A stretch of 22,134 nt of DNA from a virus. The stretch's first letter is position 1, and each line of letters begins with the position of its first letter. The position numbers and the translations under genes are program-made. Of the stretch, positions 17,061 through 21,814 are shown in pieces. The stretch spans positions 1 to 22,134 of IMG/VR virus record IMGVR_UViG_3300032331_000405. The stretch is one strand, 5' to 3'. Under the pieces are notes generated by a model that did no database searches, was not told the origin of the DNA, and saw only the letters and a list, made by a program, of their open reading frames with translations.

Positions 17061-17080
17061 AATTAAAAAACTGCCTACTT
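17061..17080 (-). repeat. Copy 1 of 20-base motif AAGTAGGCAGTTTTTTAATT
   Basis: The minus strand here reads AAGTAGGCAGTTTTTTAATT, identical over 20 bases to the + strand at 19480-19499 and 21794-21813. It lies 58 bases before the start of the minus-strand gene. A TTGTAA on the minus strand just upstream (about 16 bases before TAATTT) gives it a promoter-like look, but the -10 is poor. Confidence 0.75.
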
Positions 17081-17146: not shown

Positions 17147-17888
17147 ATTTGTTTGTGTCTGTATCGGGCTGTAACGGCGTTATATACGCCCTCTAAAACC
17201 CACTTCGGCGTGGTCTGATACACTTGTAGTCGTACGAATAACTAAATAGTGGTTTTAGAAATTGGAAAATCGTTACCCATAGGGATATGGAAAAAACGGG
17301 ATTAACGCCTAGGCACCCGAACACTTAGATTTCCAAAAGTAAATTACCCACACGCAGCAACACTAGACAAATAAATATACGGCAAAAAAGATTACCTAAT
17401 CCGCCCAGCAATAAATCCTTCGGGACTGTACACGAATTAGCGAAATTGGACGCCGCATATTTCACATAGGAGATACAAACGGAAAGCAAAATCGTTATTT
17501 AGTTTGCACCGTTCAGAGTATCCAGTAACAGATTGCAAGTCCGAACAAAACCAGCACAAACTGTTAGTCGGTGTTAATCACACAAACAGTAATTAGGTAC
17601 AGGTTCGGTATTCTACAAAGTACGCAGTTAGTAGATATAACACATTGCAAAAAGTTATGACACGCAAATAAAGAAACGCACGCAACGGATAAGTCCTCGG
17701 CAAGTGACAAAGACAGGCACCCATAGTAGTTGCTAACCAGCGCACTTCAAATAAGGCGGAAGTCGGTATGGAGAATTATCTCAGAGGTCGGTTTGGCAAA
17801 CCGATAGTGGTACACATTCCACAAACACATAAATAACTAGGGACAAACAAATTCCGAAACGGTGACGGCGCTAAAGGTCGTCACCGTC
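17147..17888 (+). ncRNA. Structured noncoding RNA, probable, ending at a hammerhead cleavage site
   Basis: The 951 bases between the minus-strand gene and the ATG at 17954 hold no convincing gene on either strand. By eye the + strand is full of short stems: 17176-17180/17186-17190; 17262-17271/17328-17336 enclosing 17271-17275/17303-17307; 17396-17400/17436-17440; 17478-17482/17509-17513 with 17486-17490/17503-17507; 17541-17546/17603-17608 enclosing 17560-17565/17585-17590 and 17571-17574/17580-17583; 17612-17616/17631-17635; 17637-17641/17654-17658; 17744-17748/17759-17763; 17771-17774/17779-17782; 17788-17794/17798-17804; 17807-17810/17819-17822. Joining segments are A-rich: I count 204 A and 109 T in 17341-17880, as in structured RNAs. 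The 3' end would be set by the hammerhead at 17888. The size and phage/aquatic setting recall GOLLD/ROOL-type large RNAs, but I cannot confirm it. The 5' end is uncertain. Confidence 0.55.
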
Positions 17889-17921
17889 TAACCGCTTAGG
17901 CAACGGTTACTGATGATGGTA
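17854..17921 (+). ncRNA. Type II hammerhead ribozyme candidate 1
   Basis: GAAA at 17856-17859, then a 9-bp stem III ACGGTGACG (17859-17867) with CGTCACCGT (17879-17887) that ends in an A-U pair, then GTC with cleavage expected after C17888, then stem I TAACCG (17889-17894) with CGGTTA (17904-17909), then CTGATGA at 17910-17916. Stem II is the weak part: CC (17854-17855) with GG (17918-17919) after an extra T at 17917. Core order and pairing match candidates 2 and 3. It lies 33 bases before the ATG at 17954, with AAAGGG as ribosome binding site. Confidence 0.72.
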
Positions 17922-17953
17922 CGCCTATCACATACAAACAAAGGGATAATAAA

Positions 17954-18247
17954 ATGACAACAATCAATAAAGTAACACTTGCAGATATAGAAACAGAAAT
18001 GAAGTTACAAAAACCAGATGTAATTATTGAATATGACTCATGGGTAAATGCAACGAATATCTGGCACTCAGATTTCCGTTACAACATTTTCTTTGGTTAT
18101 GCATCAGATGGTTGGAGTTACAACGATGACCAAGGATTTGGATACGGTGATTTCATTGACGATTTACCTACTGCAAAAGAAATCGTTGAAGTATTTTTTA
18201 AGCAAGTAGCAGAAAACCCACAACTCACATACGAAAAGGCGGAATAA
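17954..18247 (+). CDS. Hypothetical early protein (97 aa)
   Basis: ATG at 17954 preceded by AAAGGGATAATAAA, directly downstream of hammerhead 1. The product is aromatic- and acid-rich (VIIEYDSWVNATNIWHSDFRYNIFFGYASDGWSYNDDQGFGYGDF), with a mixed alpha/beta pattern and a C-terminal helix (PTAKEIVEVFFKQVAENP). No signal or membrane segment. It is followed two bases later by the next gene, so both form one post-cleavage unit. No family recognised. Confidence 0.75.
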   Translation: MTTINKVTLADIETEMKLQKPDVIIEYDSWVNATNIWHSDFRYNIFFGYASDGWSYNDDQGFGYGDFIDDLPTAKEIVEVFFKQVAENPQLTYEKAE

Positions 18248-18249
18248 AA

Positions 18250-18453
18250 ATGGCAATGAGCAAAGTAGATTATCAAGTAATAGCAAATCTAATCGTAATC
18301 GCAAAAGAACATAACCCAGAAGCAATAAAAGGGTTAAATGAATTATCTATGATGCTTTGTGGCGCATTTGGAGTTAATAATCCACGCTTTAGCACATACT
18401 TATTTCTTAAAGAGGCAGAACATTACGCCGCAAATGAATATGTAGGTAGATAA
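18250..18453 (+). CDS. Hypothetical small helical protein (67 aa)
   Basis: ATG at 18250 with AAGGCGGAATAAAA upstream; a second ATG at 18256 could also serve. The product is helical (KVDYQVIANLIVIAKEHNPEAIKGLNELSMMLCGAF, then STYLFLKEAEHYAANEYVG). Its stop at 18451-18453 is followed within two bases by the 5' arm of hammerhead 2, so the ribozyme fits tightly between cistrons. No family recognised. Confidence 0.72.
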   Translation: MAMSKVDYQVIANLIVIAKEHNPEAIKGLNELSMMLCGAFGVNNPRFSTYLFLKEAEHYAANEYVGR

Positions 18454-18455
18454 CA

Positions 18456-18530
18456 GACCGAAATACCGTGCAGAGTACGCAAAACTTTAACTGCACGGTA
18501 TATAGCAGTAATTCTGCTACTGATGAGGTC
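18456..18530 (+). ncRNA. Type II hammerhead ribozyme 2
   Basis: Open stem II GACC (18456-18459) with GGTC (18527-18530), four perfect pairs. GAAA 18460-18463, whose last A opens stem III: ATACCGTGCAG (18463-18473) with CTGCACGGTAT (18491-18501), 11 perfect bp, loop 17. Then UA, with cleavage expected after A18502. Stem I TAGCAG (18503-18508) with CTGCTA (18514-18519), loop TAATT. CTGATGA 18520-18526 follows stem I directly. Every core element of a type II hammerhead (stem II open, I and III closed) is present in order. Known class; by-eye assignment, no covariance search was possible. Confidence 0.88.
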
Positions 18531-18535
18531 ATCAG
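18520..18535 (+). promoter_or_regulatory. Alternative hairpin sequestering the hammerhead 2 core
   Basis: CTGATG (18520-18525) is complementary to CATCAG (18530-18535), loop AGGT. This hairpin cannot coexist with the catalytic fold, since it uses the CTGATGA box and the 3' arm of stem II. It would sit at the 5' leader of the downstream mRNA, 25 bases before the ATG at 18561. Confidence 0.6.
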
Positions 18536-18560
18536 ACACTACAAACAAAGGACGAAACAA

Positions 18561-19025
18561 ATGGCACTATCTTGGGATATAACAAACTGCGCAGATATTG
18601 AACTATTACAGTCTGGCACAGAATGGAATAAAACAGAGGGCATTATCTTCTCAACTATGAGCGTGGATATGCAATCTATTACAGAAGAAAACGCAATTGA
18701 GTTTTACGCAAGATTGCAAATGTTATCCACTATTTACAATGGTTTCTTTTACGATAAAGAAACAAATCAGTATGTAGCACCAACATTTGAAGATGTACGG
18801 ATACGCATTGGACTAAAAACCAACGCATACAGTCCTAACACATTCAACCAGTGGTTTAAGCGTATTGAGAAGGTACATCAAAAAGATATAAGTAAAAACA
18901 AAATGTTAGCCGCTTACTACGCAGCAAAAGTAGAAGTGGAACAAATTATGGAAGAAGAAAAAACAACTCATACCGAACGCAATGAAAGTTTTGCGTTTGA
19001 CCTACAACCAAGAAGCGGGGCATAA
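18561..19025 (+). CDS. Hypothetical early protein (154 aa)
   Basis: ATG at 18561 preceded by AAAGGACGAAACAA. The frame is open upstream to a GTG at 18468, but that start lies inside hammerhead stem III and is rejected. The product (MALSWDITNCADIELLQ) has an N-terminal mixed fold, a segment FYARLQMLSTIYNGFFYDKETNQYVAP and a C-terminal charged helix (LAAYYAAKVEVEQIMEEEK). VRIRIGLKTNAYSPNTFNQWFKRIEK could be a DNA-binding-like helix pair, but I do not recognise a family. It heads the group between hammerheads 2 and 3. Confidence 0.72.
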   Translation: MALSWDITNCADIELLQSGTEWNKTEGIIFSTMSVDMQSITEENAIEFYARLQMLSTIYNGFFYDKETNQYVAPTFEDVRIRIGLKTNAYSPNTFNQWFKRIEKVHQKDISKNKMLAAYYAAKVEVEQIMEEEKTTHTERNESFAFDLQPRSGA

Positions 19026-19028
19026 CAA

Positions 19029-19235
19029 ATGGAAACAGTAACACCAAAATATCCACAGGCAGTAGTTCATTTAACACTTACTGAAAACGCATTTGAAATT
19101 ATGGCAACAGTTTCAAGAGCGTTGAAAAATAACGGAGCAACAAAACAAGAAGTAAGTCAATACACAATGGACAGTATGGCAGGTGATTATGACGATTTAA
19201 TTGCCGCGGTTCATAGATGGGTAACCGTTGCATGA
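19029..19235 (+). CDS. Small conserved phage protein (68 aa)
   Basis: ATG at 19029, three bases after the previous stop. The product (AVVHLTLTENAFEIMATVSRALKNNGATKQEV, then DSMAGDYDDLIAAVHRWVTV) is a small alpha/beta domain; VHLTLTENAFxIMxxVSRAL with GDYDxL is a pattern I recall in many actinophage and aquatic phage early regions, without known function. It overlaps the next gene by ATGA at 19232-19235. Confidence 0.72.
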   Translation: METVTPKYPQAVVHLTLTENAFEIMATVSRALKNNGATKQEVSQYTMDSMAGDYDDLIAAVHRWVTVA

Positions 19236-19459
19236 CCGCCAAGATAATCAACATACGCAATACAGAGTGTCCTAATTGCCCAGAAATACAACCAGTTACC
19301 GATATTGAAGCAGACTTAGCATTTATTTTGGTATCCACCGAAGTATTTGCAAGAGCAATCAACGCTGGTAATTGTGAAATGGCAATGCAAGTTGCAGACC
19401 AACTTATCCATAGTGGTAACAAGTTAGGTCAATACGCAATACACAAATCGCATAGTTGA
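19232..19459 (+). CDS. Hypothetical small protein with CPNC motif
   Basis: 75 residues from the ATG at 19232, chosen for the ATGA overlap with the preceding stop; an in-frame ATG at 19217 lies inside the preceding gene. The start MTAKIINIRNTECPNCPEIQPV shows CPNC, a possible partial metal knuckle, followed by helices (IEADLAFILVSTEVFARAINAGNCEMAMQVADQLIHSG). Its stop (19457-19459) directly abuts the 5' arm of hammerhead 3. No family recognised. Confidence 0.68.
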   Translation: MTAKIINIRNTECPNCPEIQPVTDIEADLAFILVSTEVFARAINAGNCEMAMQVADQLIHSGNKLGQYAIHKSHS

Positions 19460-19542
19460 AGGCGAAATAGCACTTGTGGAAGTAGGCAGTTTTTTAATTC
19501 CGCAAGTGCTATCTAGTGCTGGACGGCACTACTGATGAGCCT
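19460..19542 (+). ncRNA. Type II hammerhead ribozyme 3
   Basis: Open stem II AGGC (19460-19463) with GCCT (19539-19542). GAAA 19464-19467. Stem III ATAGCACTTGTGGAA (19467-19481) with TTCCGCAAGTGCTAT (19498-19512), 15 bp with one G-U wobble, starting with the A-U pair. Then ATC, with cleavage expected after C19513. Stem I TAGTGC (19514-19519) with GCACTA (19526-19531), loop TGGACG. CTGATGA 19532-19538. All stems differ in sequence from hammerhead 2 while pairing is kept. The stem III loop holds copy 2 of the 20-base repeat. Confidence 0.88.
19477..19500 (+). repeat. Copy 2 of repeated motif, inside hammerhead 3 stem III
   Basis: Identical over 24 bases to 21791-21814, with the 20-base core AAGTAGGCAGTTTTTTAATT at 19480-19499. 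Here the loop of stem III is GTAGGCAGTTTTTTAA and the flanks are paired as part of the ribozyme. It is 72 bases before the ATG at 19572. Confidence 0.8.
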
Positions 19543-19548
19543 CATCAG
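19532..19548 (+). promoter_or_regulatory. Alternative hairpin sequestering the hammerhead 3 core
   Basis: CTGATGA (19532-19538) pairs perfectly with TCATCAG (19542-19548), loop GCC, excluding the catalytic fold. It ends 23 bases before the ATG at 19572. Confidence 0.6.
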
Positions 19549-19571
19549 AAACTAACAAGAGGGATAAACAA

Positions 19572-20063
19572 ATGACCGAAGAAACAACACAAGTAACAAC
19601 AGAAGCACCACTTACAAATCAACAAATTGCAGAAAATGTCGTAAAAGACTTACCTGCAAATGAAATCGTTAATGAAGTCAAACGCTTACTTGACGAGGTT
19701 GATTACCGCAAGCGAGAAGCGGCACTAGCAAAAGAAAGAGCAACACAAGGCACTTCACGCTACTTAAATCTTTTTAACTCACTTGAAGAATTTATCAAGG
19801 AGCATGTAAAAGATGAACAAATCAGCATTGACGACCTCAAAGAGTTTGCAGAGGAAGTCAATATCTCGCTTACAAAGTCAATCAAAGTTACATTTAATGT
19901 TAAGTGCGAATATGAGTTTGATGTTCCAATTGACTTTGATGAAGATGATATTACAGATGGTGATTTTACCGTCCGTATTTCATCAAATATCAATGATGAA
20001 GATGTTGAAGAAACACATGAGTCATACGAGATTGAAGATTTTGAGGTAGAAGATAATGACTAA
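19572..20063 (+). CDS. Hypothetical acidic protein (163 aa)
   Basis: ATG at 19572 with AGAGGGATAAACAA upstream, first gene after hammerhead 3. It is acidic: N-terminal Thr-rich stretch (MTEETTQVTTEAPLTNQQIAENVVKDLP), a coiled-coil-like segment (VNEVKRLLDEVDYRKREAALAKERATQG), then a beta-rich tail (KVTFNVKCEYEFDVPIDFDEDDITDGDFTVRIS) and a very acidic end (EIEDFEVEDND). No family recognised. It overlaps the next gene by eight bases. Confidence 0.75.
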   Translation: MTEETTQVTTEAPLTNQQIAENVVKDLPANEIVNEVKRLLDEVDYRKREAALAKERATQGTSRYLNLFNSLEEFIKEHVKDEQISIDDLKEFAEEVNISLTKSIKVTFNVKCEYEFDVPIDFDEDDITDGDFTVRISSNINDEDVEETHESYEIEDFEVEDND

Positions 20064-20376
20064 TACAAAAACAATTACAGTTACCGTTACAACAGAAACA
20101 GAAACGGTAACAAAAGATGCAGATAGTTGGCTAACAATTAATCCAACCAGTTTTTATCATGATGCGTGCGTACGAAAAGGGTATTGCACCGCAGAACAAT
20201 ATCTGGTTATTAACTGGACTAAATGGATTAAGTGGTATCAAGACTCAATGGCACACGGAACAAGTTTTATTTCCGTACCAGTACCAGCATTCGTCGGTGA
20301 CACTTACGCAATTGCGTTAGCCGTTGCTGCCGAGTTAAACAAACCAATAACAACAACCGAAGGGATAAACGCATAA
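20056..20376 (+). CDS. Hypothetical protein (106 aa)
   Basis: ATG at 20056, eight bases inside the previous gene, with GAGGTAGAAGATA before it. After a Thr/Val-rich start (TKTITVTVTTETETVTKDADSWL) the product has an aromatic-rich middle (FYHDACVRKGYCTAEQYLVINWTKWIKWYQDSM) and a small C-terminal alpha/beta part (FISVPVPAFVGDTYAIALAVAAEL). It ends in TAATG overlap with the DUF932 gene. No family recognised. Confidence 0.72.
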   Translation: MTNTKTITVTVTTETETVTKDADSWLTINPTSFYHDACVRKGYCTAEQYLVINWTKWIKWYQDSMAHGTSFISVPVPAFVGDTYAIALAVAAELNKPITTTEGINA

Positions 20377-21386
20377 TGGCACACAGACTAGAGGAATTTG
20401 CAGACGGAACTTCCGCCTTCTTTTCCGCAAGAGAGGTTGCTTGGCACAAACTGGGCACCGTTACAGAAGGCGCACTCACCGCAGAAGATGCGCTAAAAAC
20501 TGCACAACTGGATTGGCAAGTCATCAAATCTGATGACCCAGTTTCAACAATGGTTCCTATGTACGGTAATTCCGCTATGGAACAAGGTTCAATGGAAGAA
20601 ATCACATATGCAGATAAGTTTATGACTTATCGTTACCACCCAAAGACAAAAAAGGCGCAAGCACTTGGCGTTGTGGGTAATCGTTACACACCAGTTCAGA
20701 ACCTGCAAGCATTTTCATTTCTAAATGCAGTTGCCGATGAAAGTGGCGCGGTATTTGAGACTGCTGGCAGTATTGACGGTGGTAAAAAAGTCTTTATGAC
20801 TATGAAGATGCCAGAAGGATTGCAAATCGGTGGCGTAGATGCTATTGATTTATATTTGATGGCTTGGAACACACATGATGGAACTTCATCATTTAATGTT
20901 CTAGTTACTCCTATCCGCGTGGTTTGCCAGAACACGCTAACTGCCGCAATTTCACAAGCAAAATCCACTTTCACATTACGCCACACACCAAAAGTGGACA
21001 GTAAAATCCAAGCGGCACGAGAAACACTCAAATTGACATGGAAATACACAGAGTCATTTGAGCAGTTAGCAAATAACCTTCTTGGTCAGAAAATGACTGA
21101 TAAGGAATTTTATTCATTAGTTGAAAATGTATTTCCAATTGATGACCCAGAAAGCCCACGCGCAGTAACTATGGCAGAAACTGCACGCGGAACACTTAAT
21201 GGTTTGTGGAAAGCACCAACACAAGCCAACATTTTCGGTACAAAATGGGCGGCATATAACGCCTTTACCGAATATGCGGATTGGGCTAAGCCAGTCCGTG
21301 ACAAAAATCCAGATACTGCTAGGGCTATCAGAATAGTTACTGGCGCAGGAGATAACTTCAAGAACAAAATCTTGAACCTGCTATAA
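20376..21386 (+). CDS. DUF932 (phage/plasmid-like TIGR03299) protein
   Basis: 336 residues, ATG at 20376 in a TAATG overlap. The start (MAHRLEEFADGTSAFFSAREVAWHKLGT), the VVGNRYTPVQNLQAFSFLNAV block, GGKKVFMTMKMPEG, DLYLMAWNTHDGTSSFNVLVTPIRVVCQNTLTAAI and the C-terminal NFKNKILNLL are typical of the DUF932 family, widespread in phages and plasmids, with no settled biochemical role. Length is normal for the family. It closes the three-gene group after hammerhead 3; a 15-bp hairpin follows the stop. Confidence 0.85.
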   Translation: MAHRLEEFADGTSAFFSAREVAWHKLGTVTEGALTAEDALKTAQLDWQVIKSDDPVSTMVPMYGNSAMEQGSMEEITYADKFMTYRYHPKTKKAQALGVVGNRYTPVQNLQAFSFLNAVADESGAVFETAGSIDGGKKVFMTMKMPEGLQIGGVDAIDLYLMAWNTHDGTSSFNVLVTPIRVVCQNTLTAAISQAKSTFTLRHTPKVDSKIQAARETLKLTWKYTESFEQLANNLLGQKMTDKEFYSLVENVFPIDDPESPRAVTMAETARGTLNGLWKAPTQANIFGTKWAAYNAFTEYADWAKPVRDKNPDTARAIRIVTGAGDNFKNKILNLL

Positions 21387-21401: not shown

Positions 21402-21462
21402 TAGGCGGTTTGGTACAAGTCGGGTAATAGTTAGACAACCCCACAAAGTGCCAAACCGCCTA
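21402..21462 (+). terminator. 15-bp hairpin after DUF932 gene
   Basis: TAGGCGGTTTGGTAC (21402-21416) pairs with GTGCCAAACCGCCTA (21448-21462), one G-U wobble, with a 31-base loop that can hold an inner GGGT/ACCC pair. No T-run follows. The stem core TAGGCGGTT/AACCGCCTA is shared with 14770-14808. No hammerhead box is present here. The rest of 21387-21583 shows no gene. Confidence 0.6.
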
Positions 21463-21583
21463 ATCGTTTGCAGAGCGTGTTTCTACTATTAGGCATAACA
21501 ATAAATAGATACGCGACTTGCACTTTTAATTACTTGAACTCAACAAATAAATCGTTTAATCTAGTTAATGGAGGCAAACCCAA

Positions 21584-21799
21584 ATGATAAACACCGTACT
21601 AGGCATTTCATTTTCTTTATTCACCGCAGTTTCTGCATTGACACTTAACACTCTTAATTCAAATCCACTTAAATTGACACTACGCGGTAGGCGTTTTCTA
21701 TTCGTAGTTGCATTTGTAAGTGGATTATTACTTTACCAATTTGCAATTCATTTCTTTTGGTATTGCAATGAAAGTGAGTGCATTATTGAATGGAAGTAG
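21584..21799 (+). CDS. Small membrane protein (71 aa)
   Basis: ATG at 21584 after AATGGAGGCAAACCCAA, a strong ribosome binding site. Two hydrophobic helices are seen: VLGISFSLFTAVSALTL and FLFVVAFVSGLLLYQFAIHFFWY, with a basic stretch (KLTLRGRR) between and an acidic CNESECIIEWK end. It is probably an inner-membrane protein of the early region; no family recognised. The second repeat copy on the + strand starts inside its 3' end (21791). Confidence 0.7.
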   Translation: MINTVLGISFSLFTAVSALTLNTLNSNPLKLTLRGRRFLFVVAFVSGLLLYQFAIHFFWYCNESECIIEWK

Positions 21800-21814
21800 G
21801 CAGTTTTTTAATTC
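21791..21814 (+). repeat. Copy 3 of repeated motif
   Basis: Identical over 24 bases to 19477-19500; the 20-base core is 21794-21813. Flanks TTGAAT (21786-21791) and ATTCAA (21811-21816) could pair, again placing the motif in a loop. It ends 57 bases before the ATG at 21871. TTGAAT lies 17 bases before TAATTC (21809-21814), a promoter-like spacing with a poor -10. Confidence 0.8.

Follow-up and report, generated by a model that had tools for sequence, protein, structure and literature searches.

Clusters of hammerhead ribozymes are known from phages. Perreault et al. (2011) described clustered phage hammerheads that flank genes or blocks of genes in prophages and proposed that they split the polycistronic RNA; cleavage was seen in vitro for the tested clusters and in E. 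coli for one of them (PMC3088659). The same work already reported type II hammerheads with a very short stem II (one base pair in one example) and a pseudoknot between loop I and the 3' tail, a feature of most type II hammerheads though not of all (PMC3088659). Since at least 2011, the purpose of phage hammerhead arrays has been an open question. Here, we describe a locus of this kind in the IMG/VR record IMGVR_UViG_3300032331_000405, a virus stretch of 22,134 bases that was analysed as a whole and is called the window below. Its left half carries tail genes and its right half small genes and a DUF932 gene. In the right half, three type II hammerhead ribozymes (HHR1, HHR2 and HHR3) lie along an operon, and HHR1 directly follows a large structured noncoding RNA (ncRNA). 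As judged from sequence and predicted folds, one early transcript is quite probably cut by the hammerheads, yielding a large functional RNA as well as mRNA units whose ends are capped by hairpins.

In each of the three ribozymes, the type II descriptor finds GAAA, a stem III hairpin, a U-H cleavage site, a stem I hairpin, CUGAUGA and a short open stem II. The core elements CUGANGA and GAAA and the NUH cleavage triplet are thus arranged around three stems, with stems I and III closed and stem II open, as in the type II architecture. A covariance model (R2) trained only on the ribozymes of relatives, window copies left out, ranked the same three sites highest in the 22-kb window: HHR3 (19460-19549, E 3.9e-11), HHR2 (18454-18541, E 9.4e-9) and HHR1 (17850-17932, E 1.4e-3). 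The fourth match has an E-value of only 2.9. In the R2 alignment, 160 of 160 cells are paired (100%), with 38 double-change cells against 11.1 in shuffled controls and at most 3 when slid. Stem III of HHR1 also shows compensatory pair changes among relatives. At the Rfam gathering threshold, no match was found in the whole window, and permissive Rfam 15 scans (E<=10) of the window returned no ribozyme or giant RNA, only unrelated families below gathering. When Rfam Hammerhead_II (gathering 37) was applied to HHR1 orthologues, L016 reached 44 bits, and L030 (36.2) and L017 (35.0) remained below.

The relatives are 36 viral loci (L-numbered) recovered from IMG/VR via the DUF932 protein. Counted together with the window, they yield 77 type II hammerheads, every one on the + strand; the - strand and three shuffles gave zero. 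Descriptor and R2 thus place the ribozymes at the three sites named by the original prediction. Its gene starts are correct, and the distances from cut to ATG are indeed alike (66, 59 and 59 nt for HHR1, HHR2 and HHR3). The A-rich ACAAACAAAGG-type leader tails that it pointed out are present at 17934, 18541 and 19552, with similar tails in relatives; we read them as ordinary Shine-Dalgarno leaders.

Each relative carries two or three hammerheads. Protein clustering revealed a hammerhead at the operon start in every locus extending that far. HHR3 is located immediately 5' of the same gene (19572 in the window, 163 aa) in nearly all relatives, and the gene set between HHR1 and HHR3 differs from phage to phage. 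HHR1 and HHR3 are near-universal in the family and mark conserved module boundaries; HHR2 is optional. The idea that the ribozymes sit at boundaries of gene groups is supported, with HHR1 following the ncRNA and HHR3 preceding the same gene in nearly all relatives; HHR2 is dispensable. The original prediction treated the repeated layout as unfamiliar. It is known in kind, having been described by Perreault et al. (PMC3088659), and unrelated phages have up to nine hammerheads in a row. Seven to nine type II hammerheads within a few kb are found in the unrelated phages L053, L060, L133 and L083 (IMGVR_UViG_2974780444_000001), the last with nine along one 6.4-kb stretch.

The part of the window upstream of HHR1, previously called a noncoding region, is no simple gap: 17147-17855 holds a large structured RNA that covaries. 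In 12 relatives, the stretch before HHR1 is 61-88% identical and contains no conserved open reading frame. For the alignment of 13 sequences, RNAalifold gave an E of -196.5; after its columns had been shuffled, the value was -118.9 +/- 6.2, which corresponds to a z of -12.6. Individual helices were evaluated by comparing the pairing of each sequence's own two arms with that of arms from different relatives, a test that ignores kinship and gives optimistic p-values. Own arms paired better in domain 1 (p=0.0016 for the outer helix, and 0.0001), in the outer helix of domain 2 (-9.1 vs -2.7 kcal/mol, p=0.0005, 14 of 14 sequences), in the stem of hairpin 3 (-12.0 vs -7.2 kcal/mol, p=0.0005) and in domains 4 (p=0.0001) and 5 (p=0.0006). 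Two weaker helices gave p=0.024 and 0.038 (the latter a CGG hairpin). The long-range pseudoknot between GUUAUUUA (17494-17501) and UAAAUAAC (17830-17837) behaves likewise (-6.6 vs -4.3, p=0.0014). It is fully replaced in relatives, for example by GACAAUUAC/GUAAUUGUC and UAGAUAUUUU/AAAAUAUCUA. In domain 3, for which the structure was drawn by hand, 89.3% of cells are paired vs 78.1 +/- 0.9 after shuffling, with 58 double changes vs 17.9 in shuffled and at most 10 in slid alignments. G.U pairs are kept within the helices and are invariant in the domain 3 analysis. Since the opposite strand would have A-C mismatches in their place, the ncRNA is assigned to the + strand. The tip loops of domain 1 are CUAG, CGAG, CAAG or UUCG and GAAA, GGGA or GUAA in relatives. 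A kissing loop at its palindromic GCCUAGGC tip was considered and dropped, since relatives have YNMG tetraloops there (CGAG, CAAG, UUCG). On this sequence evidence, 17231-17888 is a conserved, ornate, multi-domain RNA. A cmscan of the ncRNA against all Rfam 15 families, GOLLD, ROOL and OLE included, gave no match. A scan of the genome collection for the ncRNA motif gave chance matches only, none of them upheld by the covariance model.

The ncRNA and HHR1 occur together. Eleven further loci fetched by ncRNA or ribozyme motifs match R1, the covariance model based on domain 3, with E<1e-23 (L240, a duplicate record of L035, was left out of this count). In all 11, HHR1 lies 142-203 nt after domain 3, except in L348, which is cut off by the contig end. 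An HHR1-specific motif identified 40 stretches; among those newly fetched, all but L484 (E 1.6 only) have an R1 match upstream. Weak R1 matches (E 1e-5 to 3e-3) were obtained for the distant L021-L026 and L038. HHR1 is thus found at the 3' end of the ncRNA in every R1-matching member with downstream sequence. A weak second R1 match was observed elsewhere in the same phage, in L035 (13238-13388) and also in L018 (8748-8898), at 16.6 bits (E 0.15). The stem III loop of HHR1, CACUAAAAG, is nearly invariant family-wide (40 IMG/VR stretches; for example near 2590 in L016), and the loops of the other ribozymes vary. A tertiary contact between this loop and the ncRNA is possible. At the 5' end, a TGA-TANNNT sequence occurs at the same place in the closer relatives L003, L005-L007, L009-L011, L013-L019, L035 and L037 and is missing in more distant ones. 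It suggests an ncRNA promoter with a start near 17231.

The ribozymes follow two designs. In HHR1, AGGC of loop I pairs with a downstream GCCU to form a pseudoknot (mean -6.25 kcal/mol for HHR1); no such pairing is found in HHR3 (0.72, no better than cross pairs). HHR3 contains the repeat CUGAUGA-GCC-UCAUCAG (19532-19548) and the HHR2 of the window contains CUGAUGA-GG-UCAUCAG, in which the 3' segment is complementary to the ribozyme's own core. Our survey covered 176 non-redundant type II hammerheads drawn from a wide range of phages. In 40 of them, UCAG follows the core at a distance of 2-16 nt, as compared with 3 and 6 in control stretches farther downstream. Where NUCAG is present, the otherwise free core position N7 and N' form a Watson-Crick pair in 26 of 32 cases and a G-U pair in 4 of 32 (Fisher p=5e-5). 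The spacing between core and complement differs by several nt between phages, as expected if the intervening nucleotides form the loop of a hairpin and not if the two parts meet in a rigid tertiary contact. In the window, the hairpins have predicted energies of -5.7 to -6.3 kcal/mol, the competing stem II has 4 bp, and RNAfold prefers the hairpin. As modeled, capture hairpin and active core are mutually exclusive. The covariation of N7 with the 3' segment implies that the later ribozymes carry a hairpin able to capture their own core, also in unrelated phages.

These data suggest the following scheme. A rightward phage transcript would begin near 17231 and be cut co-transcriptionally by the type II hammerheads. 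HHR1 would free the ~650-nt ncRNA, closed by its long-range pseudoknot just ahead of the ribozyme, from the downstream mRNA, and HHR3, plus HHR2 where present, would split the gene modules. Every cut would leave stem III and a 2',3'-cyclic phosphate on the upstream RNA, and stem I and a 5'-OH on the downstream mRNA. Because the type II form closes stems I and III, a hairpin would lie flush with each new end. Such hairpins may shield both ends from nucleases and allow the fate of the large RNA to differ from that of the mRNAs. The units may also differ in stability or translation, as the original prediction supposed. In HHR3 and HHR2, UCAUCAG would capture the core strand after cutting, replace the short stem II, free its partner and block religation. 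Core capture could make the cut irreversible or limit ribozyme activity; it could also gate the ribozyme beforehand.

Several observations weigh against this scheme. The evidence for the promoter is a match to the consensus only. HHR1 of the window has a stem II of only 2 bp, with an extra U after the core, and would be active only if the loop I pseudoknot compensates, by analogy with the 1-bp stem of Perreault et al. The extra U (CUGAUGA-U-GG..) is observed at 17917 in the window, in the HHR1 of its subclade and in the HHR2 of L037 (5317). HHR2 is not conserved. The original prediction held that relatives with the genes and no ribozymes would speak against it; such relatives exist for HHR2 (L003, L009, L011 and others keep its downstream genes) and not for HHR1 or HHR3. 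Finally, L027, L028, L030, L033, L036 and L484 gave no significant R1 match even with filters off, and we do not claim the ncRNA there, although in L027, L028 and L033 the GUANCCAGC motif is retained at the corresponding position.

Other explanations were weighed. The structured region is found immediately 5' of the operon, in the same orientation, and precedes a ribozyme ~66 nt ahead of the first ATG. It might therefore be a long cis-acting 5' leader, riboswitch-like or controlling translation or termination, with HHR1 removing the leader or switching the operon on. We consider this unlikely. A multi-domain structure of ~650 nt is far above the usual riboswitch size, no intrinsic terminator was found between RNA and genes, HHR1 separates the two, and the genes after HHR1 vary while the RNA persists. 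The genes on either side of the region are divergently oriented and an 18-bp repeat is present at 17062, features that would also suit a DNA element (a replication origin or a divergent control region) that has inverted repeats and no connection with the ribozymes. The kept G.U pairs, the GNRA and YNMG tetraloops, the compensatory changes in the pseudoknot and the strict coupling to HHR1 on one strand only make this extremely improbable.

For the capture repeat (CUGAN..N'UCAG), a switch that holds HHR3 and HHR2 off until a ligand, a protein or translation opens it is a possible but somewhat doubtful alternative to a product trap. The hairpins compete with the 4-bp stem II, RNAfold favours them, and HHR3 lacks the activating pseudoknot. 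However, the capturing segment is transcribed last, once the ribozyme can already fold, its spacing differs widely among phages and no aptamer-like domain is attached. Retrozymes use hammerheads for circular RNA formation, and the 5'-OH and cyclic phosphate ends of segments released by ribozyme pairs could likewise be ligated into retrozyme- or viroid-like circles. This is very improbable here, since the R2 search of the window found no ribozyme at the 5' end of the ncRNA and the segments hold ordinary genes. A search by Perreault et al. for circular or spliced products was negative (PMC3088659).

The coordinates are collected in Table 1. The DUF932 protein has relatives in isolated phages that are mostly actinobacterial, the best being from Microbacterium and Arthrobacter (40-44% identity). 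A tail protein has some relatives in actinobacterial phages (29%), and its best match is a Thermoanaerobacterium phage. The host of these uncultured phages is likely actinobacterial. No relative turned up when isolated phages were searched at the DNA level. Isolated Planktophila phages were considered as possible close relatives and dropped: the family described in PMC10202952 carries whiB, and no isolated phage matched at the DNA level.

Table 1. Features of the ribozyme-punctuated operon (window positions; HHR, hammerhead ribozyme).
Feature	Position	Strand	Remarks
Promoter candidate, extended -10 TGA-TACACT	17216..17224	+	Consensus match and position; start near 17231
Large ncRNA, ~658 nt	17231..17888	+	3' end is the HHR1 cut; 5' end inferred from promoter candidate
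ncRNA domain 1	17262..17336	+	Outer helix 17262-17268/17330-17336; GNRA-type hairpin 17277-17290; YNMG-capped hairpin 17297-17319
ncRNA domain 2	17373..17462	+	Outer helix 17373-17383/17452-17462
ncRNA hairpin 3	17478..17513	+	Loop GUUAUUUA pairs with 17830-17837
ncRNA domain 3	17518..17665	+	Most conserved; basis of R1; window scores 158 bits
ncRNA domains 4 and 5	17682..17822	+	Helix 17682-17688/17726-17733; hairpins 17789-17803, 17807-17822
ncRNA pseudoknot 3' strand	17830..17841	+	UAAAUAACUAGG; ends 10-15 nt ahead of HHR1
HHR1, type II	17852..17932	+	GAAA at 17856; cut after 17888 (C17)
Gene, 97 aa	17954..18247	+	No Pfam or PHROG match
Gene, 67 aa	18250..18453	+	Frequent among relatives; no function from Pfam/PHROG
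HHR2, type II	18456..18540	+	Optional in family; GAAA at 18460; cut after 18502 (A17)
Gene, 154 aa	18561..19025	+	Weak phrog_3289 match
Gene, 68 aa	19029..19235	+	phrog_1933 (family without function)
Gene, 75 aa	19232..19459	+	No function from PHROG search
HHR3, type II	19460..19549	+	GAAA at 19464; cut after 19513 (C17)
Gene, 163 aa	19572..20063	+	Directly after HHR3 in nearly all relatives
Gene, 106 aa	20056..20376	+	No function from profile search
DUF932 gene	20376..21386	+	phrog_1221; best isolated-phage relatives actinobacterial

An 18-mer, AGTAGGCAGTTTTTTAAT, occurs exactly three times in the window, at 17062-17079 (-), 19481-19498 (+) and 21795-21812 (+), where 0.03 copies are expected at up to 3 mismatches; it is also found in L006 and L009. 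Each copy lies ~60-90 nt ahead of a gene start, and one is within the stem III loop of HHR3. It is a candidate phage promoter or control site. A strong hairpin (21403-21463) between the DUF932 gene and the next gene matches Rfam mir-3047 at 34.4 bits, below gathering (53). It is perhaps a terminator or an RNA element.

Judged against Rfam 15 and the open-licence literature, where absence is weak evidence, two things look new: the large RNA with its coupled HHR1, and the core-capture repeat with its covarying N7. We regard it as a serious possibility, short of probable, that giant phage RNAs of a new class are seen here, with a mature 3' end generated by a dedicated hammerhead, and that the ribozyme-punctuated operon coupled to this RNA has self-limiting later ribozymes whose core-capturing design is shared with unrelated phages. 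The family fixes two ribozymes at conserved boundaries across deep divergence, one of them tied to the 3' end of the large RNA, and this RNA is a further candidate for the giant ornate RNAs of phages, of which very few are known. Like GOLLD, ROOL and OLE, it is several hundred nt long, multi-domain and pseudoknotted; GOLLD and ROOL are also phage-encoded, and GOLLD has, as here, a conserved 3' part and a more variable 5' part (PMC12286853). It differs from all three in that neither sequence nor covariance models match. Those three RNAs are further characterised by a homo-oligomeric cage or dimer. GOLLD and ROOL often lie near phage tRNA islands, whereas no tRNA was found in the 22-kb window. 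Its 3' end is bounded by a hammerhead, and the cryo-EM paper mentions none for those RNAs (PMC12286853). In haloviruses HF1 and HF2, a ribozyme likewise lies a short way ahead of the gene that opens a polycistronic early transcript, but it is a single variant ribozyme and no large upstream RNA is described (PMC3088659).

With RF02276, the ribozymes share the core, the permutation, the short open stem II, the HHR1 pseudoknot, the phage setting and the clusters that bracket gene blocks (PMC3088659). They differ in that HHR3 lacks the pseudoknot, HHR2 and HHR3 carry the core-complementary repeat, stem III is long or motif-bearing, and the window copies fall below Rfam detection. The core-capture hairpin suggests a route to irreversible or self-limiting natural hammerheads. 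In viroid hammerhead sequences, alternative folding sequesters the core and limits cutting or ligation. Here, the core would be likewise sequestered, but by a short hairpin that forms locally, immediately past the core, in the leaders of phage mRNAs.

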